Source of the DNA: Spirochaetales bacterium
Lineage (GTDB): Bacteria; Spirochaetota; Spirochaetia; SZUA-6; JAFGRV01
Length of the DNA: 36,531 bases
Direction: 5' to 3'
NCBI GenBank assembly: GCA_016934975.1
Contig: JAFGRV010000587.1
Span: forward strand, 1 to 36,531
Of the stretch, positions 4,451-35,878 are shown piece after piece. The translations under genes were made by a program, and so were the position numbers. The notes under the pieces are model-generated. The model had not been told where the DNA came from and did no database searches. It worked only from the letters and a program-made list of their open reading frames with translations. Positions within the stretch are counted from its first letter, which is position 1; each line of letters begins with the position of its first letter.

Positions 4451-6619
4451 TTATCCATGAACCCTGAAAACCCCGGACCAGTTTTGAGGGGGCGGATTTT
4501 TCAGATAGGTAACGCACCGTTTAATATAGAGGAGTGGAATGATGTCATTCGGGAACACACCTCGTGCTTCTTTAAAATAAGTGAGGGCTTCTTTAAACTT
4601 TTGATCCTTAAATCTCCTCATTCCCGCATCAAGGATATCTCTTGTTTTCAGTTTTAATTCCTTAATATCGTCGGGATCGACTTCAAAGACTTCAAAAATT
4701 CTACATGGCTCTGTTCTTCCCTTTACGATAACAAGATCGATTTCCCGCATCAAAATCGATTGAGGCTGCGTAATATTCTGATAGGTCCATTCCGAAATAA
4801 TAATCGAGGCTTTATAGAACTGTGTCAGTTTTTCCAATCTGGAAGCAAGATTCACGGAATCTCCGATAACTGTGGTATCAAGCCGTGTGGTACTCCCGAC
4901 GGTTCCGAGCATCAAAGGACCGGTATTGATTCCGATTCCCATGTTTAAGGGCTCGTCCTGGTTATGTTCATGTGTGCTGTTAAACTCATCCAATTGGGAT
5001 CTCATCCCGATCGCTGCTTTCACCGCCCTGTCTGCGGAAGAATTCGGCTCATTTTCATTTATTTCAAGGGGGGATTCGGAAAAAAGAGCCATGATCGCGT
5101 CACCGACATATTTATCAACAAAACCCTCATTCGCATTTATCGGGGACTCCATTCGTAACAAATATTTATTTAATAGATGAAAGCTATCCTCCGGGGACAT
5201 TTCTTCCGAAAGATTGGTAAATTTCCGGATATCAGAGAAGAGAACAGACATACTCCGGGCAGAACTATCCCCGAGGGTAATGTCGATGGCAGATTCTTTG
5301 CCCAGGAGAGATAAAAATTGTGTGGGAACAAAACGAAAAAAGGCGTTTTTTTGCTGGGTGAGTTCTATGTTGAGCTTATCAACTTCTTTTTTGGTATCGA
5401 CGAATCTGTATGCCGAGGTGAGGAACATGGAAAGTATATAGAGAACAACTCCTGTATTGGTAAGCCACATCGGGGGTTCATTTGCCAGATTAACAAAAAT
5501 AATATCATAGGACGCGGTAATGACCACGAGACTTATACCGATAAGCAGGATCTTCGCATAGGTGTTTCCTTTTTTTACCGCGTATATAGTGAGTATAAGG
5601 AGATAAAAATTAATCGGGCTTACTAATGCGAGGAATAATACATTATTAATGAGAAAATATGCATCATTTACGGAAGGAGTCAAAATAAGGACAATACAAC
5701 AGGCGGTAGTAATAATGGCAAGAACTCCTTTTACAATCCGGTTGGAATGGATGCGGTAAAAATCCTGAAAGAAAAAAGCTAAAAACATTTGGGCGAGGAA
5801 TAATCCCGTGTACCATAATTTGGTTCCCATAAGGTATCCCAGAGGAAAGTCCTCGATGAAGAGACCTGTGGAATAGATTGATATTAAAAAAAATGCAATA
5901 CAAATGTAGAGATTAAACCGCTCTTCCTTATTCCTGAGGTACATAAGTAAGAAATAAGAAGCAACAAGACTCGAAAGGAAAAAAAGTATCATCGGGATAA
6001 GAACATTAATCGTATACTGAAAAGAATAGTCATTGAGCCTGTCTTTATTGTTTGTTATAAAAGGAAGTTTCAGATCCCCGGCATCTTTTTCCGTATACAC
6101 CCGCATAGAGATAACATTTTTGTCTCCGAAACGTATCAGCCCTTCCGGTATTATGTAAGTCCTGGGTATTGCCGAGGTCCCGAAATAATGGTCCGGGGGC
6201 ATTGAACCGGATGTGCCGATGAGAGAACCATTAAAATAGAGATGAGTCGCGTCGGGAAGTTTTTGGGCAGCATATCCCAAGGCTTGTCCTCTGATATTCA
6301 TGGAAACATAAAAACTTTTTCTGAACCAGAAGAAATTGGATGATGTAATATCAAAAGGAAAATTGGAAGCGGGAAAATCGACCCTTTCCCACGTCGAGTC
6401 ATCATAATCCGGTAAAGCAAACTCCTTATTATCACCGACCCGGAATTTCCAATTATGTGAAAGATATGTACGTGAATCAAGGGTTTCCACCAGTTCATAT
6501 TTTTTTTGAGATGAACTATCATCTGATGAACTATCATCTGATGAAGTATCATCTAAAAAAAATAGTGAATAAAAGCAGAGGTTGATGAGAAGAAGGGTAT
6601 ATAAAAATTTTTTATTCAC
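4451..6619 (-). CDS. Membrane class III adenylate cyclase with 7TM and extracytoplasmic jelly-roll domain
   Basis: A signal-anchor helix is followed by a Asp/Ser-rich repeat, an extracytoplasmic jelly-roll domain (about residues 45-190, with DYDDSTWERVDFP resembling sugar-binding modules), seven hydrophobic segments (about 200-410), a short coiled coil and a class III cyclase domain (about 450-645). Metal-binding aspartates are in LFSDIRKF and YVGDAIMALF, and the adenine-selecting Lys (FVDKYVGD) and Asp (RLDTTVIGD) are both present, so ATP rather than GTP is the likely substrate; NLASRLEK gives the transition-state Asn and Arg. A helical, TPR-like tail (ALTYFKEARGVFPND) closes the protein. 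I prefer the GTG at 6619, 12-13 bases after an AGAGGAG site and just before the hydrophobic anchor (722 residues). An ATG at 6730 in the same frame would add 37 residues with no ribosome binding site. The layout is that of 7TM-DISM receptors, so it may sense an external ligand, perhaps sugar. Confidence 0.88.
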   Translation of the reverse strand: MNKKFLYTLLLINLCFYSLFFLDDTSSDDSSSDDSSSQKKYELVETLDSRTYLSHNWKFRVGDNKEFALPDYDDSTWERVDFPASNFPFDITSSNFFWFRKSFYVSMNIRGQALGYAAQKLPDATHLYFNGSLIGTSGSMPPDHYFGTSAIPRTYIIPEGLIRFGDKNVISMRVYTEKDAGDLKLPFITNNKDRLNDYSFQYTINVLIPMILFFLSSLVASYFLLMYLRNKEERFNLYICIAFFLISIYSTGLFIEDFPLGYLMGTKLWYTGLFLAQMFLAFFFQDFYRIHSNRIVKGVLAIITTACCIVLILTPSVNDAYFLINNVLFLALVSPINFYLLILTIYAVKKGNTYAKILLIGISLVVITASYDIIFVNLANEPPMWLTNTGVVLYILSMFLTSAYRFVDTKKEVDKLNIELTQQKNAFFRFVPTQFLSLLGKESAIDITLGDSSARSMSVLFSDIRKFTNLSEEMSPEDSFHLLNKYLLRMESPINANEGFVDKYVGDAIMALFSESPLEINENEPNSSADRAVKAAIGMRSQLDEFNSTHEHNQDEPLNMGIGINTGPLMLGTVGSTTRLDTTVIGDSVNLASRLEKLTQFYKASIIISEWTYQNITQPQSILMREIDLVIVKGRTEPCRIFEVFEVDPDDIKELKLKTRDILDAGMRRFKDQKFKEALTYFKEARGVFPNDIIPLLYIKRCVTYLKNPPPQNWSGVFRVHG
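6510..6554 (-). repeat. Three 15-bp tandem units inside the cyclase gene
   Basis: The unit GATGAACTATCATCT occurs at 6510-6524 and 6525-6539, with a one-base variant at 6540-6554. In the cyclase frame it encodes Asp-Asp-Ser-Ser-Ser repeats just after the signal anchor. The length, a multiple of three, keeps the frame, so unit number may vary by slippage without breaking the gene. Confidence 0.85.
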
Positions 6620-6921
6620 CTTTTTATTAATACTCCTCTGTTTCGTTACATTATTTCCAATTGAGGTTGTCCTGCAAACTCCTTTGCGTACAAAAACGCA
6701 GCTTATTTTTTTTACATACAGGAACATCATGTAATAAAATAATGTAATTAAAGAAAAGTCAAGTATAAGAATATTTTTTTAATTATTCTCATTTTTTTTT
6801 CAGTTTTATTAAAAAAAGAGAACTTCCGGCATGCTATAAAAATATAAGTACAAAGAAACTGACAAACCTAAAAAAGTGGAATATATTGTATTAATGGCAT
6901 CTCAAAAAACTCCTTTTTTAA

Positions 6922-11583: not shown

Positions 11584-14500
11584 CTAACAGAATTCACTTA
11601 TCAAACCCACATAGTATTGGGCTATCAATAATGCATCCACTATATCCACACCACCGTCGCAGTTGACGTCGGCATTGTCAGGATTAAAAGTGGCCGGATT
11701 TAATCCGACGTATTCCTGGGCCACAAGCAAGGCGTCTACAATGTCGATGTTTCCGTCGTTATTAACATCCCCGGGACTTCCGCCGGTGGGAGGTGAGGTT
11801 GGGGTCGGAGTAGGTGTGGTTGTCGGGACCGGTGTCGCCGTGGGGAGGGGTGTTGCCGTCGGATCAGGGGTGGGTTCGGTTCCGCCGGGACCGTATCCCC
11901 AGCAGATAACGTCTCCCTGGTAATGAACCGTCATGTGATCCCAATCCGCAGGATTCAGTTTTCCCGGATCAAAGGACCAGTCATTTGCCTGGTTAAAAGT
12001 GACATGATTTGCCTGGTCAAAAAAACGGTTCTGGATCTGTCCGGTATTAGCCCCCGGTGGAAGGAGATTGCTTGCACCGGTTCCGCCGACCCATGTTGGG
12101 ACATTAACCGTGGATTTAAACCCGATGTCCATGTATTGATAGGATCCCTCGCTTCCGAAGGAATAGGTGATGTTTGTTTGTCCCGAATCGGCATAATCGG
12201 AAATACCGGTGAGATTGCCGAGCTGTGGTTCCGAGGTAAACCAATACCGCAGAGTCACATCGGTGAGGGTTACACTTTCAATATCATCATTAAACAAGTA
12301 GGCGTCGAAACGTATTTCTCCGGTGGAACTGCCGGTATTCGTACATTTGTACCGGGCCCTCAGTTTGAGAGGAGGCGGGGGAAGGGTTGTTCCCGAGACT
12401 TCTTCCGAAGGAGTGCTCTGGTTTGAGCTTGTGTCAACGGAACAGACTTTATAATAATAGGTGGTTTGGGAATTCAGGCCTGTATCAATAAAATTACTCA
12501 CAAGAGTATCTCCTGCATAGGTAGTGCTTCCCACGGAAAAGCCCGGCGATGGAGAGCGGTACACACGGTATTTGGAAAGATCGGCTTCGGAATTATCATA
12601 CCAGTCGAGAGTGATACTGAATGAATCCACAGATGAAATGAGAAGGCCCCGGGGTGCACCCGGGGGGTCGGGGTCCGGGGTAAGGGTTGTTGCCGAGACC
12701 TGGGACGAAGGGGTTCCTTCATTAAAACTGTCGTCAACCGCTGTTACCCTGAAATAGTACACGGTCTGTGCCTGAAGGTCTGTAGCGGAAAAAGAACTTA
12801 CAGTCGAAGTTCCAATCAGGGTTGATGCGCCCGGTGTAAACCCCGAAGTCCGGGATTGATAGATATTATAATGATCAAGATCGCTTTCACTGTTATCCTG
12901 CCAGTCCAGGTTCACCTGTGAACTCCCGATGGCAGTCGCCGAAAGACCCTGGGGCCGGGCCGGCGGCTCCTGATCTTTATACGGTTCATTTCCCCAGATA
13001 CGGACTCCATCCCGGTATACCGGCATATTGGAATTCTTTGCAAGAGTGCTCCCCATACCTTGTAAAGAAAAATCATTTGATGAATCAAGTTTTCCTAAAA
13101 AGTTCGGGGTAGTAAAAATAATCCCGAATTGAAACTCCCTCTTGTTATAGAGTTGGACTCCATTATAATCTACTTCGAGATAATAAATCCGGTTAAGCTC
13201 ATCCCACGGCTGAAAAGAAGTGGTGACAGTCCCGTCGCCCTTTTCATTCGTTACCGTCTCTATTTTCAGGTTGCTGAAATCATATCCCTGGTCAAATACA
13301 TCCGAGAGGTCTGCGAAATAGCGGTAACTTAATGAACTCTCGAAATGAGGCGGATGCACCGAATGATTATGGATGTAGGCGGTCACCTGGAGCCTGTCAT
13401 CAGCTTCTTTCTCTATTTTGGATTCCACATAAAATGCTTCGATCGGGGGCTCGGGGGTCGGTTCGGGATCGGGCATTGTGTCCGGACCAAAGAACCGGCG
13501 CATCCCTGCCATAGCCCCGACACATGCGGCGTTAAAATCGATGGAGACTTCGTTCTGTATGAAATCTTCCGTCGCGTCATTATGTTGATCATCTTCTCCC
13601 GGTCCGCCGACAAGTGCGCCGTAAAGCAGGTGTTTGTGTTCAGGCGGGTCATCCAGAAATCCGGTGTCAGATCCGTGCGCCGCGTCGTGGTGGGGGTGCC
13701 GGGGAGAATTGTTTCCGCATCCTACAATATAACAGCGGTTTAATGGGTTGGAGCCGAGGGCATAGGACATCTGGCTCGCCCCGAAATCCCGGTAAATTTC
13801 ATTTTCTGCTGCCGGGAAATTGTTGTAAAATGCAAGTCCTGTAAGACCCATGGCTGTGGCATAGCGTAATGAACCCCACTCGTGAAGGTAGACTAATCCG
13901 GCAGGTGATTCCGCAATGTCATACATCATGGTTTCCAGGTTGAATTTCACTTGTTCTATAAATGCCGGATGTCCCGTAGCCCCGGCAGCAGCGATAAACG
14001 CTCCTGCCCAGACAGCGTCCCAGCATTGAGTCCATTGGTTTTCCCAGCTAATGCCGTTTTCGCGGTTTGTGTCATTGTCCAGGCCCGCGCATCCCGGGCT
14101 AATGATGGTATTAAAATCGTCAAGATAATACTCATCACCCGTGGCAATATAGAGCCAGATCGCTCCCCAGGCAAGGTCATCCCAGTAAATACTCGGGGGA
14201 TAAAATGAAAGGCCGTCACTAAGGCCCAGGTTATTTCGTCCGAGGTTGAAGAGATCGATGGCATGGTCCAGGCATTCTGCGGAATAAGCCATATCGATAT
14301 CCCGGTAATTAATGTACATTAACGCAAGGGCGGCTGCCGTTGAGCCGCAGACATCGGATGCAGGGTTTGATGGTGTACAGACGATAAGGTCCCTGGGGCA
14401 TTTTTCATCGGATTGGAGTTCCGGGGGACCCCAGAAGGAGTGGTCTTTATCGGAACCGACGGAATAAAGAAACGTATTCGGTTCCGGGTGGCAGCGTATA

Positions 14501-14955
14501 AAGTAATCGGTTGCCCATTTTACGGCACGGAGAAGCCACTCTGCCTGTCCGGTTTCTTCGTATTCCGATTTAAACTCATAATATCCCCATCCAAGGGTGG
14601 ATGCGGCATAAGCATTGGTAATGCCGAACTTAATATGGTCTCCCGCGTCATGATACCCTCCGCGGGCATCAATATACACGGATCCCCCTGAACTTAATGT
14701 GACTGTTCCGCCGTCGTTAACGTGGCAGTCACCCCGCCAGTTAAAACGGTTCTGCCCGGTAATATTGATTCCGCAAAAATTCGCATCATAAAAATTGATG
14801 GTCGCGGCAAGCATGGTAGCGTAATTATAAAGAGGTGCGCCCCCTGAGCCTGTCAACGGGATATCCTGCCAGGCCTGACCCCGTAGTGTAGCCAGGGGTA
14901 TCATGATAAGCAGGAATAAAAAACAGGTTGATAAATACAGAGATTTTTTTTTCAT
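11584..14955 (-). CDS. Secreted GH9 endoglucanase: GH9-CBM3c-FN3-FN3-CBM3-linker-dockerin
   Basis: This 1123-residue cellulase starts with a signal peptide (MKKKSLYLST, hydrophobic to about residue 25). The GH9 domain (about 28-490) shows GGYHDAGDHIKFG with the base aspartates 103 and 106, the SPRHPHHDAAHGS loop, and the catalytic acid Glu469 in QNEVSIDFNAA. A CBM3c-like module (about 505-655, with FDQGYDFSNLK and VYRDGVRIWGNEP) follows; in theme-B GH9 enzymes it feeds the chain and gives processivity. Two fibronectin III domains (about 665-760 and 770-858), a second CBM3 (about 863-1020), a Pro/Thr linker and a two-repeat type I dockerin (about 1060-1123) complete it. The dockerin has GDVNNDGNIDIVDALL and VNCDGGVDIVDALL calcium loops and ends in Cys. 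I chose the ATG at 14955 for its GAAAGGA site and signal peptide; an ATG at 15030 overlaps a -10-like box. It should act outside the cell, attached to a cohesin protein. Confidence 0.95.
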   Translation of the reverse strand: MKKKSLYLSTCFLFLLIMIPLATLRGQAWQDIPLTGSGGAPLYNYATMLAATINFYDANFCGINITGQNRFNWRGDCHVNDGGTVTLSSGGSVYIDARGGYHDAGDHIKFGITNAYAASTLGWGYYEFKSEYEETGQAEWLLRAVKWATDYFIRCHPEPNTFLYSVGSDKDHSFWGPPELQSDEKCPRDLIVCTPSNPASDVCGSTAAALALMYINYRDIDMAYSAECLDHAIDLFNLGRNNLGLSDGLSFYPPSIYWDDLAWGAIWLYIATGDEYYLDDFNTIISPGCAGLDNDTNRENGISWENQWTQCWDAVWAGAFIAAAGATGHPAFIEQVKFNLETMMYDIAESPAGLVYLHEWGSLRYATAMGLTGLAFYNNFPAAENEIYRDFGASQMSYALGSNPLNRCYIVGCGNNSPRHPHHDAAHGSDTGFLDDPPEHKHLLYGALVGGPGEDDQHNDATEDFIQNEVSIDFNAACVGAMAGMRRFFGPDTMPDPEPTPEPPIEAFYVESKIEKEADDRLQVTAYIHNHSVHPPHFESSLSYRYFADLSDVFDQGYDFSNLKIETVTNEKGDGTVTTSFQPWDELNRIYYLEVDYNGVQLYNKREFQFGIIFTTPNFLGKLDSSNDFSLQGMGSTLAKNSNMPVYRDGVRIWGNEPYKDQEPPARPQGLSATAIGSSQVNLDWQDNSESDLDHYNIYQSRTSGFTPGASTLIGTSTVSSFSATDLQAQTVYYFRVTAVDDSFNEGTPSSQVSATTLTPDPDPPGAPRGLLISSVDSFSITLDWYDNSEADLSKYRVYRSPSPGFSVGSTTYAGDTLVSNFIDTGLNSQTTYYYKVCSVDTSSNQSTPSEEVSGTTLPPPPLKLRARYKCTNTGSSTGEIRFDAYLFNDDIESVTLTDVTLRYWFTSEPQLGNLTGISDYADSGQTNITYSFGSEGSYQYMDIGFKSTVNVPTWVGGTGASNLLPPGANTGQIQNRFFDQANHVTFNQANDWSFDPGKLNPADWDHMTVHYQGDVICWGYGPGGTEPTPDPTATPLPTATPVPTTTPTPTPTSPPTGGSPGDVNNDGNIDIVDALLVAQEYVGLNPATFNPDNADVNCDGGVDIVDALLIAQYYVGLISEFC

Positions 14956-15029
14956 CACTTTTTTTCCTTTCTTTCTTATTGTAGCGAAGTTTTCGCAACT
15001 TCTTGTTTTATTTGATTTGTTGTTCCTCA

Positions 15030-15035
15030 ATTATA
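15030..15035 (-). promoter_or_regulatory. Likely -10 box of the GH9 gene
   Basis: TATAAT on the minus strand lies 75 bases before the chosen ATG. The -35 at the proper distance is poor (TAACAA at 15053-15058), which may mean an activator is needed. Downstream, the leader has a small GAAGTT/AACTTC stem-loop around 14990-15003. Confidence 0.4.
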
Positions 15036-15157: not shown

Positions 15158-15667
15158 ATGAAATATGTTTTTTTGATTACCGGTCTTTTTTTAATACTAT
15201 TCATTACTGGGTGTCCTGTTACTGATGATGATTCGTCCGGTGATGGTTATCTTATTATTATTACTCATCATCTGGATTCCATAGGTTCTTACACCAACGT
15301 TGATATATACGAAGGTACATCTATTTATGTCGAAGGAGCAGATGTCCGGATTAATGATAAGCTACTTCCCGAGATCACATATCCCGGATATATCTATTAC
15401 ACGGGTTTTAATGTGGCAGGTAATAACTACGGTGATGAGGTCACCTTCACGATTTCCATCGATGGAGAAAGTATTTTGGAACAAACGATGAGAGTCCCTT
15501 CCTCCGAAGTAACGCTTACTGCTCCTGATTTCGATTGGTTTAACTTGGAAGTTTATGCAGTGAATACCATGGATCTTGATGATTTTAACGCTGGAAGTAG
15601 AAAACCAAATAACATTTCCCGTAATATGATATTTTTTTTGCTGTGCTTTTATAAATTGTCCTGTTAG
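15158..15667 (+). CDS. Hypothetical lipoprotein
   Basis: The 169-residue product has a basic start, a hydrophobic helix and the lipobox FITGC, so it should be lipid-anchored at Cys19. The mature part opens with a Asp/Ser tether (VTDDDSSGDG) and then appears as a beta-rich domain of roughly 110 residues (IITHHLDSIGSYTNVDIYEG and onward). The last 20 residues (after GSRKPNN) are hydrophobic and Cys-containing, unlike the rest, and may come from a frameshift near the 3' end. A GGAGG site lies 5 bases before the ATG. The gene is divergent from the GH9 cellulase, so a shared role is possible, but I do not recognise the family. Confidence 0.75.
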   Translation: MKYVFLITGLFLILFITGCPVTDDDSSGDGYLIIITHHLDSIGSYTNVDIYEGTSIYVEGADVRINDKLLPEITYPGYIYYTGFNVAGNNYGDEVTFTISIDGESILEQTMRVPSSEVTLTAPDFDWFNLEVYAVNTMDLDDFNAGSRKPNNISRNMIFFLLCFYKLSC

Positions 15668-15680
15668 AAATAAATTTATA

Positions 15681-15719
15681 AAAAAAGGAGCTGCCCCGGC
15701 CAACCGGCAAGGGCAGCTC
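15681..15719 (-). terminator. Intrinsic terminator of the small minus-strand unit
   Basis: GAGCTGCCC (15688-15696) pairs with GGGCAGCTC (15711-15719). Reading the minus strand, the stem is followed by eight T residues with one interruption by C (CTTTTTTT TATAA). In the plus direction the tail is only TGTTAAATTT, so the main direction is minus, although it could also help to end the lipoprotein transcript. Confidence 0.75.
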
Positions 15720-15727
15720 TGTTAAAT

Positions 15728-15760
15728 TTAAGCTGATCTAACTCCTGTTATTTCTTCCAT
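15728..15760 (-). CDS. Micro-ORF encoding a 10-residue peptide
   Basis: ATG at 15758-15760 opens MEEITGVRSA and ends at TAA. A near-perfect ribosome binding site, AAGGAGGT (complement at 15767-15774), lies 6 bases upstream, far better than for most genes in the window. The terminator begins about 10 bases after the stop. Its last codons take part in the 9-bp pairing with the predicted 5' end of the RNA. The strong site suggests real translation, as a leader or signalling peptide, but this is inference. Confidence 0.4.
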   Translation of the reverse strand: MEEITGVRSA

Positions 15761-15795
15761 ATATGTACCTCCTTATAAAAATGAATTTTTAAAAA

Positions 15796-15809
15796 CGTAA
15801 CGCGTTACG
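15796..15809. promoter_or_regulatory. 14-bp perfect palindrome, LacI-type operator candidate
   Basis: CGTAACGCGTTACG is a perfect palindrome with a central CG, the layout of LacI/GalR-family operators. It lies in the predicted leader of the small minus-strand unit, 22 bases before its ribosome binding site. As RNA it could also form a short hairpin. No LacI-type regulator gene is in the window. Confidence 0.4.
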
Positions 15810-16206
15810 GAATTTGTAGTCTTATCTATAGTTTCTCTATTAATTATTTTATTGGGATTTGTCTCGGATCAGCTTGATCAAAGTATCGCATATTTCAATT
15901 TATATGTCAAGTATATTAATACGAAACTTATAAAAAAATAATCATCTGATTGCAGGACATCATCTATTTTATGCAGTGTTTTGATTATACCCTTTTTAGA
16001 TCCTTTTTTTAAATAGCAGCAATTTAAAAAAAATAGTAAAATTGTCAAAACAATTAGGTTTTAACCGGAGTATAAAATAATTTGGGGATTTTAAAAAGTT
16101 TAAAATACTTTCGCTTAACCATTATTCATCAAAATAGTATGTTTTATCCTTGAAAATACATTACGATTGTCTTAATCTTGTATACATACCCTTGTGGTTT
16201 CACATA
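15810..16206. other. Gene-free AT-rich stretch
   Basis: Apart from the promoter of the small minus-strand unit (15882-15910), I see no gene, repeat or hairpin of note here. The right part is the upstream region of the next plus-strand gene and shows no clear promoter. Confidence 0.5.
15882..15910 (-). promoter_or_regulatory. Sigma-70-like promoter of the small minus-strand unit
   Basis: Minus-strand TTGACA (15905-15910), a 17-base spacer and GATACT (15882-15887) make one of the best promoter matches in the window. The predicted start, about seven bases on, falls on the first base of the self-complementary AAGCTGATC. Confidence 0.6.
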
Positions 16207-16830
16207 ATGGATGATTTAAGCGTACTAATAAAAGATGTAATCTCTGATGATAATTCCCTCGCACGCAAAAGTTTCTTTGAAATAGAGAAAGGAATAAAGA
16301 GTGATCTGTACTCTCAAGGGGAATTGGAAGAAATAGTACCGATCCTTGCCGAAGCAATCCCGGAAAAGACCATGAAATTCTGGCCTGTATTTTTACTTGC
16401 ATTACTCGCTAAAAATAGAATAGATATCGGCGCTGCCGTTCCCAATCTGGAATTAAAATTGAATGTGTCATATCAAGAGGGGGGGAGAGATTTTGTGGTC
16501 CGCGCCCTGGATTCATATTATTATCACATTAAAAACGAACCGCAACTCGGTCCTCTCCCGGAATTAATTAAAATTAATGATTGGGAATTAAAAAAATACA
16601 GTAGAAGACCTTTTTATTCTTGCCTGGATATGGATTTAGCGGCTCAACACAAATCATTATTACCGTGTCCAATCTGCGGCGGTGTTGATACTAAAAAGAC
16701 ATTTTATTCGGAAGAAACTGTCGGGACGAATATAAGCGGGGCGGATATTTTTACCTATGAAATAGTATGTATGAGTTGTTTTATTTTTTCCGTATTTAGC
16801 ACTGTAGATTCCTTCGGACCTACAGGATAA
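16207..16830 (+). CDS. Hypothetical protein with C-terminal zinc ribbon
   Basis: From the ATG at 16207 the product has 207 residues. The first 110 are helical and repeat-like (IKDVISDDNSLARKSFFEIE, then a second helix pair), possibly HEAT-like. The C-terminus carries CPICGG and, about 35 residues later, CMSC, a four-Cys zinc-ribbon pattern. There are no membrane segments or signal peptide. No ribosome binding site is evident; a TTG at 16150 in frame would add 19 residues and has none either. I do not recognise the family. Its role could be protein or nucleic-acid binding. It stands alone, with a 200-base gap on the right that holds a near-perfect 14-base direct repeat (GTTCACGTAACGGA and GTTCACGGAACGGA, around 16863-16890). 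Confidence 0.65.
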   Translation: MDDLSVLIKDVISDDNSLARKSFFEIEKGIKSDLYSQGELEEIVPILAEAIPEKTMKFWPVFLLALLAKNRIDIGAAVPNLELKLNVSYQEGGRDFVVRALDSYYYHIKNEPQLGPLPELIKINDWELKKYSRRPFYSCLDMDLAAQHKSLLPCPICGGVDTKKTFYSEETVGTNISGADIFTYEIVCMSCFIFSVFSTVDSFGPTG

Positions 16831-34627: not shown

Positions 34628-35878
34628 CTAATATTGCGTAAAACCAAGATTACGGTTTTTGAGATTCTGAACGATAGTAGTAATAGCCGCAAGAGTATTC
34701 GCCTGATTTTCATGGAGCAATGGGTTTTGGCCCGCGCTCAAGTTGTTACACGAGTTAATGATTGACTGGGTGCTGGCACCGTTCCAGTCCTGTGGATCAA
34801 TGCTCGGGGAAATGATCTGCAGTCCGAGATCTGAACACGCAGACTGTATGGTGGAGCTGCTTTCCAGATAAGGAAGCCGGATGACCCTGGGCTTTGGAAA
34901 GCCTGCATTCATGATAGCCTGGTTGCACTGGTTGAGGTCGTTATAAACCTGCTGATAGCCCCAGCTGCCCATGTGGGAGTGAGTTTGGCTATGGTTCTGG
35001 ACGCTGAAGCCGGCGTTCTTATAGGCAGATGAGTTGCCGGGCATATTTTGGCCGATGACGAACATGGTGGCTTTACAGGCGCCCGCACTTGTAAGGGAAT
35101 TGCAAAGGGATTGTGCATTACCGGTTGGGCCGTCATCAAAGGTGAGGTAAACATTACCGTTCGAGCCGCTGCATTCACTGCTGCCCGGGGGGGTTGTTGG
35201 TGCGGTTGTGGGTGCGGGAGTTGACGAGCCGGTATAAAATTCGATATATCCGTTACAGTGCAGCCATTCGCTGTATTCTCCCCCGCAGGCACCATTCATA
35301 TAAACACCAGTATTAGTTACCTGATCTTCTGCCTGATATATTGTACCGTTAATAGTAGCAGAATCAACCTGAATATCCATACCGGTCTCAAGCTGATCAT
35401 CATTCGTAAAAGCAACCCGGATTGTTCCGGTACCATTTGCACTGTAATCTGCATAACTTGTCGACATGGAGTATGTTGCTACTGCAGTTCCGTTTACCTG
35501 GATTTCCAGGTTTTCACCACCCATAGTACCTCTTGCCCGGACAGTAATATTACCACTGACTGATGTTGGTGCTGATGTTGGTGCTGATGTTGGGTCTGGT
35601 GTGCCTGGAACCGGTGTCGTCGAGCATGGGAAACTCGATATAAGGTTCACATAATACTGGGAGATGAGTAGCGCATCCACAATGTCAACATCTCCGGAAC
35701 AGTCCACGTCCGCTTCACTTGCATAATAATTCGCAGGATTCAATCCCACGTACGCCTGGGCAATAAGAAGGGCGTCGACAATGTCGATTCCACCGCTGTG
35801 ATTCGTGTCGCCCAGTGACTGGCCGAACGCCGCGAATGATGCGAGGATCAATGTCAGGACCAATAAAATTCTTTTCAT
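34628..35878 (-). CDS. Secreted dockerin-CBM60-CE4 acetylxylan esterase/polysaccharide deacetylase
   Basis: After a signal peptide (residues 1-19) comes a type I dockerin (about 21-85; GDTNHSGGIDIVDALL and VDCSGDVDIVDALL), a linker, a CBM60-like xylan-binding module (about 108-215; ITVRARGTMGGENLEIQV, then WLHCNGYIEF), another linker and a NodB-type CE4 domain (about 240-416). CE4 motifs are TFDDGPT (Asp248/Asp249), NHSQTHSHM (His296, His300), RLPYLE (Arg334), DPQDW, and PLLHE (His389). This order resembles xylanase-linked CE4 modules of Cellvibrio. It should remove acetyl groups from xylan, outside the cell, on the same scaffold as the GH9 enzyme. The dockerin is at the N-terminus, unusual since most sit at the C-terminus. 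AGGAG lies 7 bases before the ATG. Confidence 0.92.
   Translation of the reverse strand: MKRILLVLTLILASFAAFGQSLGDTNHSGGIDIVDALLIAQAYVGLNPANYYASEADVDCSGDVDIVDALLISQYYVNLISSFPCSTTPVPGTPDPTSAPTSAPTSVSGNITVRARGTMGGENLEIQVNGTAVATYSMSTSYADYSANGTGTIRVAFTNDDQLETGMDIQVDSATINGTIYQAEDQVTNTGVYMNGACGGEYSEWLHCNGYIEFYTGSSTPAPTTAPTTPPGSSECSGSNGNVYLTFDDGPTGNAQSLCNSLTSAGACKATMFVIGQNMPGNSSAYKNAGFSVQNHSQTHSHMGSWGYQQVYNDLNQCNQAIMNAGFPKPRVIRLPYLESSSTIQSACSDLGLQIISPSIDPQDWNGASTQSIINSCNNLSAGQNPLLHENQANTLAAITTIVQNLKNRNLGFTQY

Follow-up and report, generated by a model that had tools for sequence, protein, structure and literature searches.

A candidate lineage-specific small transcription unit with an occluded 10-codon ORF in a Spirochaetales genome

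In FourU-type RNA thermometers, a run of U residues pairs with the AGGA of the Shine-Dalgarno (SD) sequence. Bacterial small RNAs that are dual-function or encode peptides have been surveyed (PMC5521070), and expression has been shown for VcdRP, which codes for a 29-aa protein (PMC8672173). In the mRNAs of the type I toxins Hok, AapA1 and AapA3, a 5′-3′ long-distance interaction is formed and the SD is hidden (PMC6733600). The present analysis concerns a locus on the minus strand of the window (the whole stretch of 36,531 nucleotides that was analyzed), where a promoter-like site, a perfect SD, a 10-codon ORF and a strong terminator are found, as far as sequence can tell, in working order and beyond what chance produces (Table 1). 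Our preferred explanation, to which we give a probability of about 0.42, is that this locus may be a lineage-specific small transcription unit producing a structured RNA with an occluded micro-ORF.

Table 1. Positions of the elements of the candidate unit
Feature	Position	Strand	Remark
Promoter-like site	15882..15910	-	TTGACA, 17-base spacer with TG, GATACT; assigned by consensus match only
Predicted RNA 5′ end AAGCTGATC, 5′ arm of the 9-bp closing stem	15867..15875	-	
58-nt local hairpin over SD and AUG	15755..15812	-	predicted fold
Perfect 14-bp palindrome CGTAACGCGTTACG	15796..15809	.	one of three such in the window
Perfect SD TAAGGAGGT (9 nt)	15767..15775	-	six bases before ATG
10-codon ORF MEEITGVRSA, TAA stop	15728..15760	-	translation
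3′ arm of the closing stem GATCAGCTT	15730..15738	-	overlaps the ORF end
Intrinsic terminator	15680..15719	-	10-bp outer and 3-bp inner stem, then T7

Transcription and translation signals

The draft genome comprises 665 contigs (6.8 Mb), of which the window is contig 77. The unit lies in a gap between two plus-strand ORFs, one lipoprotein-like (15158-15667) and the other zinc-ribbon-like (16150-16830). The former could not be annotated and is unique to the source genome; its C-terminal residues, MIFFLLCFYKLSC, resemble read-through into non-coding DNA, and it may be truncated. The latter likely starts at 16213 and displays the pattern CPxCGG...CMSC; searches of 25 near genomes and of the species genome collection gave no relative. 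These flanking ORFs are absent from all near relatives, and the contigs of two genomes carrying an orthologue of the nearby GH9 cellulase gene (G001 and G004) share only that orthologue with the region of the unit, which, by gene content, makes the 15.1-16.8 kb interval a lineage-specific patch.

All the parts described by the sequence-only reading were found on the minus strand at or near the places it had given. The order along this strand is promoter-like site, 5′ arm, 14-bp palindrome, SD, 10-codon ORF and terminator. The promoter is near-consensus, as had been proposed: its -35 (15910-15905) and -10 (15887-15882) elements match the consensus at 10 of 12 positions and the -10 is extended by a TG. 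Transcription is predicted to start around 15875 and to yield a minus-strand RNA of about 195 nt ending near 15680. As a class, promoter-like sites are not significant in this 1.4 kb region (eight found for 7.4 expected from shuffles), but those with a 10/12 match and an extended -10 are rarer, with 0.025 per kb in random sequence. Two further promoter-like sites lie upstream of this one, so that the 5′ end, and the closing stem that depends on it, are uncertain.

The best evidence for the unit is the SD, which had been described as nearly perfect and is in fact perfect. The ORF that it precedes reads ATG GAA GAA ATA ACA GGA GTT AGA TCA GCT TAA. The sequence TAAGGAGGT, located 4-9 bases before an ATG, occurs 21 times in the genome: 17 occurrences start ORFs of at least 34 aa, three overlap other long frames, and the last is that of MEEITGVRSA, the only micro-ORF in a gap. 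This combination of the 9-nt SD and ATG never occurred in the chance model, a first-order random sequence of 2 Mb matching the local composition. Given this absence by chance and the nature of the 20 other sites, the start site of the micro-ORF is very likely real, or was real until recently. The latter case corresponds to the main rival explanation, namely a relic left by deletion or truncation of a gene whose promoter, leader, SD and first codons would have remained together with an old or chance stop and an old terminator, the codons being functionless. It is the main rival because all other gap sites with an SD of this kind open a longer gene, as do the other perfect SD/ATG sites of the genome in general; its further merits depend on the homologue searches reported below.

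The predicted terminator with its T-run was also recovered on the minus strand, as a strong hairpin, GAGCTGCCCTTGCCGGTTGGCCGGGGCAGCTC (stem 15719-15688), followed by C and by T7 (15686-15680). Such strong GC-rich terminators occur 0.003 times per kb in random sequence. Since the hairpin begins about 22 bases past the plus-strand stop of the gene 15158-15667, it could belong to this gene as its (possibly bidirectional) terminator, and the promoter, SD and micro-ORF would then be accidents at the approximately 28% GC found near the unit. That promoter-like sites are no commoner than in shuffles and that the fold apart from the terminator is modest would agree with such an incidental origin. However, the T-run follows the hairpin on the minus-strand side only and the SD with its ATG has zero chance occurrences in 2 Mb, and we regard this explanation as improbable. 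The sequence signals for a promoter and a terminator are both present and jointly exceed chance, as a discrete transcript would require, and the complete order of parts was not encountered in the 2 Mb of random sequence, even when the SD was relaxed to AGGAGG. Overall, a self-contained small transcription unit with a realistic translation start, as initially proposed, is well supported at the sequence level.

Predicted fold of the RNA

The whole RNA has a predicted folding energy of -52.4 kcal/mol (z about -5), a value driven by the terminator, since z is -2.8 (uncorrected for multiple tests) once the latter is removed. The 3′ arm of the closing stem, GATCAGCTT, covers the last two sense codons of the ORF together with flanking bases on both sides, as far as the T of TAA. 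The pairing of nine bases between the RNA 5′ end and the ORF end, on which the claim of a self-closing RNA was based, is present, but the claim is weaker than it had appeared: shuffled versions of this RNA give the pairing P ~0.02 per transcript (0.07 if a pairing of that length may lie anywhere in the RNA), it hangs on the predicted start, and the SD is hidden without it. Given a start at 15875, the stem is modelled with a probability of about 0.98. In the whole window, inverted repeats of at least 9 bases within 200 nt are numerous (71 compared to 28-43 in shuffles). A self-closing regulatory RNA, predicted here from single-sequence folding and a presumed start, is plausible.

The palindrome and the hairpin that covers the SD and AUG are additions to the earlier observation. 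In this 58-nt predicted hairpin, UUCCGUA pairs with UAUGGAA, which includes the start codon, and UUUUUA pairs with the UAAGGA of the SD. Its energy is unexceptional (z -1.8, uncorrected for multiple tests), but among the 18 SD starts in gaps only that of the micro-ORF has both its SD and its AUG hidden (SD unpaired 0.16, AUG 0.00), a joint occlusion equalled in 0.4% of shuffles. Whichever start site was modelled, both elements are hidden, and the hairpin stays after removal of the 5′ arm; SD occlusion would therefore be independent of the closing stem. A FourU thermometer was also considered and rejected, since the SD hairpin is predicted not to melt at physiological temperatures (SD unpaired 0.15 at 20 °C, 0.16 at 37 °C and 0.38 at 60 °C).

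The palindrome CGTAACGCGTTACG is possibly an operator, a nascent RNA hairpin or both. During modelled synthesis, it first forms a short hairpin of its own, which is displaced by the 58-nt hairpin as the AUG region emerges. No palindrome regulon was detected, sites with at most two mismatches numbering five in the own genome compared to 11 reversed-control sites per strand.

Under the preferred explanation of a structured RNA with an occluded micro-ORF, the transcript would fold into a closed and stable molecule. The local hairpin would hide the SD and AUG, keeping the micro-ORF off or poorly translated by default, while the stem between the 5′ end and the ORF end, beside the terminator hairpin, would offer nucleases few free ends. 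The main role of the transcript would be that of a stable small RNA, its micro-ORF being translated only when the hairpin is opened by processing, by a partner RNA or during early transcription, i.e., before the AUG-region sequence that closes the hairpin has been made. A dual-function RNA is possible.

A closed fold and a hidden SD are also found in the Hok and AapA mRNAs (PMC6733600), and by analogy the locus could encode a type I toxin-like message kept inert through 5′-3′ pairing. This seems highly improbable, because the peptide has only 10 aa and is hydrophilic, no antisense promoter-like site was found on the plus strand within the unit (by a consensus scan only) and the hiding of the SD does not depend on the long-range stem. 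An inert, self-closed small mRNA with the build of a type I toxin message, encoding instead this hydrophilic 10-residue peptide and activated through processing or by a partner RNA, is also very unlikely. The idea of a peptide signal is unsupported, since MEEITGVRSA is short and hydrophilic, carries no export signal and has no homologue found; while the SD of its ORF is perfect, the predicted fold hides it.

Neighbouring genes and homologue searches

Upstream of the terminator, the minus strand has no other gene for about 1.7 kb. The next gene on this strand after the unit, approximately 650 bases away and beyond an opposite-strand gene, encodes the GH9 cellulase (start near 14955). The unit could therefore be imagined as its conditional leader, acting by terminator read-through and possibly controlled by a repressor bound to the 14-bp palindrome, which lies inside the transcribed region. 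Several observations make this very unlikely, besides the distance and the intervening gene: GH9 has its own promoter-like site (15059-15030), the genome is not enriched in the palindrome, and the loci of the GH9 orthologues in G001 and G004 do not have such a unit. Furthermore, the closing stem and the terminator are not mutually exclusive and coexist in the predicted fold, so that no attenuator or switch logic emerges. The suggestion of a riboswitch-like leader is likewise unsupported, with no same-strand gene for about 650 bases and a 5′ pairing that does not compete with the terminator.

The GH9 gene itself (11584-15030, minus strand) carries CBM3, fn3 and type I dockerin domains. When used as a query, it gave nearly 150 matches in each of the genomes G000, G001 and G002, mostly to the C-terminal dockerin region, pointing to an extensive cellulosome-like set of enzymes in this lineage. 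Ahead of this gene, a strong SD, AAAAAGGAG, precedes an 11-codon ORF, MEKKVTIFNET (15085-15034, minus strand). In G001, a similar SD, AAAAGGAGTACGTAGTATG, seems to serve the start of the orthologue itself, so that in the source genome the GH9 start has apparently moved or been frameshifted. Elsewhere in the window, an AAGGAG with a 10-codon ORF is found at 6915 on the minus strand, about 150 bases before an adenylate/guanylate cyclase-like gene (4451-6730); this could be due to chance. The minus-strand ORF 34628-35878 displays, by eye, an N-terminal dockerin-like region, a carbohydrate-binding-like part and a polysaccharide-deacetylase-like end, the dockerin being backed by matches to other dockerin regions.

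The unit is single-copy in its own genome, where no second copy or paralogue was found, the weak matches being AT-rich stretches, SD regions or parts of other genes. This also rules out the inverted repeat as the ends of a mobile element. No homologue of the unit was detected in 98 relatives or in 395 genomes of the same class, with only chance-level E-values for short matches over the SD/leader or AT-rich stretches, and phage and plasmid collections likewise gave chance-level matches only. The back-translated MEEITGVRSA was found neither in 84,980 species genomes nor in viral contigs, and the exact terminator sequence was absent from viral contigs. One match in G096, in the first codons of a 314-aa frame (MEEIKGV), was rejected as due to chance, MEEI(x)GV occurring in none of the others among the 26 near genomes. 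Comparison of the window with Rfam (release 15) found no family at or above its gathering cut-off, which bears out the earlier statement that no known RNA family is recognizable; the best weak match, SurA (24.6 bits compared to a cut-off of 100), rests mainly on the terminator hairpin. The sequence-only reading had held that a lack of conservation in relatives would refute the unit. No homologue was indeed found, but this is weak evidence, since the flanking genes are likewise missing, the neighbourhood is not syntenic and the same-genus comparison is limited to one other genome.

These searches also bear on the relic of a lost gene. The lack of homologues of the unit and its peptide, and the evident gene turnover in the 15.1-16.8 kb interval with its lineage-specific genes, are in its favour. 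However, no homologous intact gene start was found in the own genome, in 25 relatives or in the 84,980 species genomes, the deletion borders were not identified, and the intact SD, spacing and terminator imply that the event must be recent. We consider a relic less likely than our preferred explanation.

Significance and comparison with known systems

If expressed, the unit would rank among the smallest self-contained coding units so far described, its own RNA fold blocking translation, and would offer a simple model for the rise or persistence of very short ORFs in DNA specific to one lineage. If instead it is a relic, it shows that a full set of expression signals mimicking a micro-gene can outlast gene loss, which calls for caution in the annotation of small ORFs. 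Should the self-closed toxin-like mRNA be true, it would represent a new use of that RNA architecture.

As in FourU elements, a U-run is predicted to pair with the AGGA of the SD; however, the AUG of the unit is tightly paired too, the SD stays mostly closed up to 60 °C in the predictions, and the unit has neither an Rfam match nor a full-length gene behind it. It shares with Hok and AapA a full-length RNA closed end to end (here by prediction) and a hidden SD, but the unit has no hydrophobic toxin, no sign of an antisense RNA and a long-range stem that does not itself hide the SD. VcdRP is expressed and encodes a 29-aa protein, while the ORF of the unit has 10 codons and is predicted from sequence. 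Like dual-function small RNAs such as VcdRP, it would nevertheless combine its own promoter, an intrinsic terminator, a short length and a short ORF with an SD.
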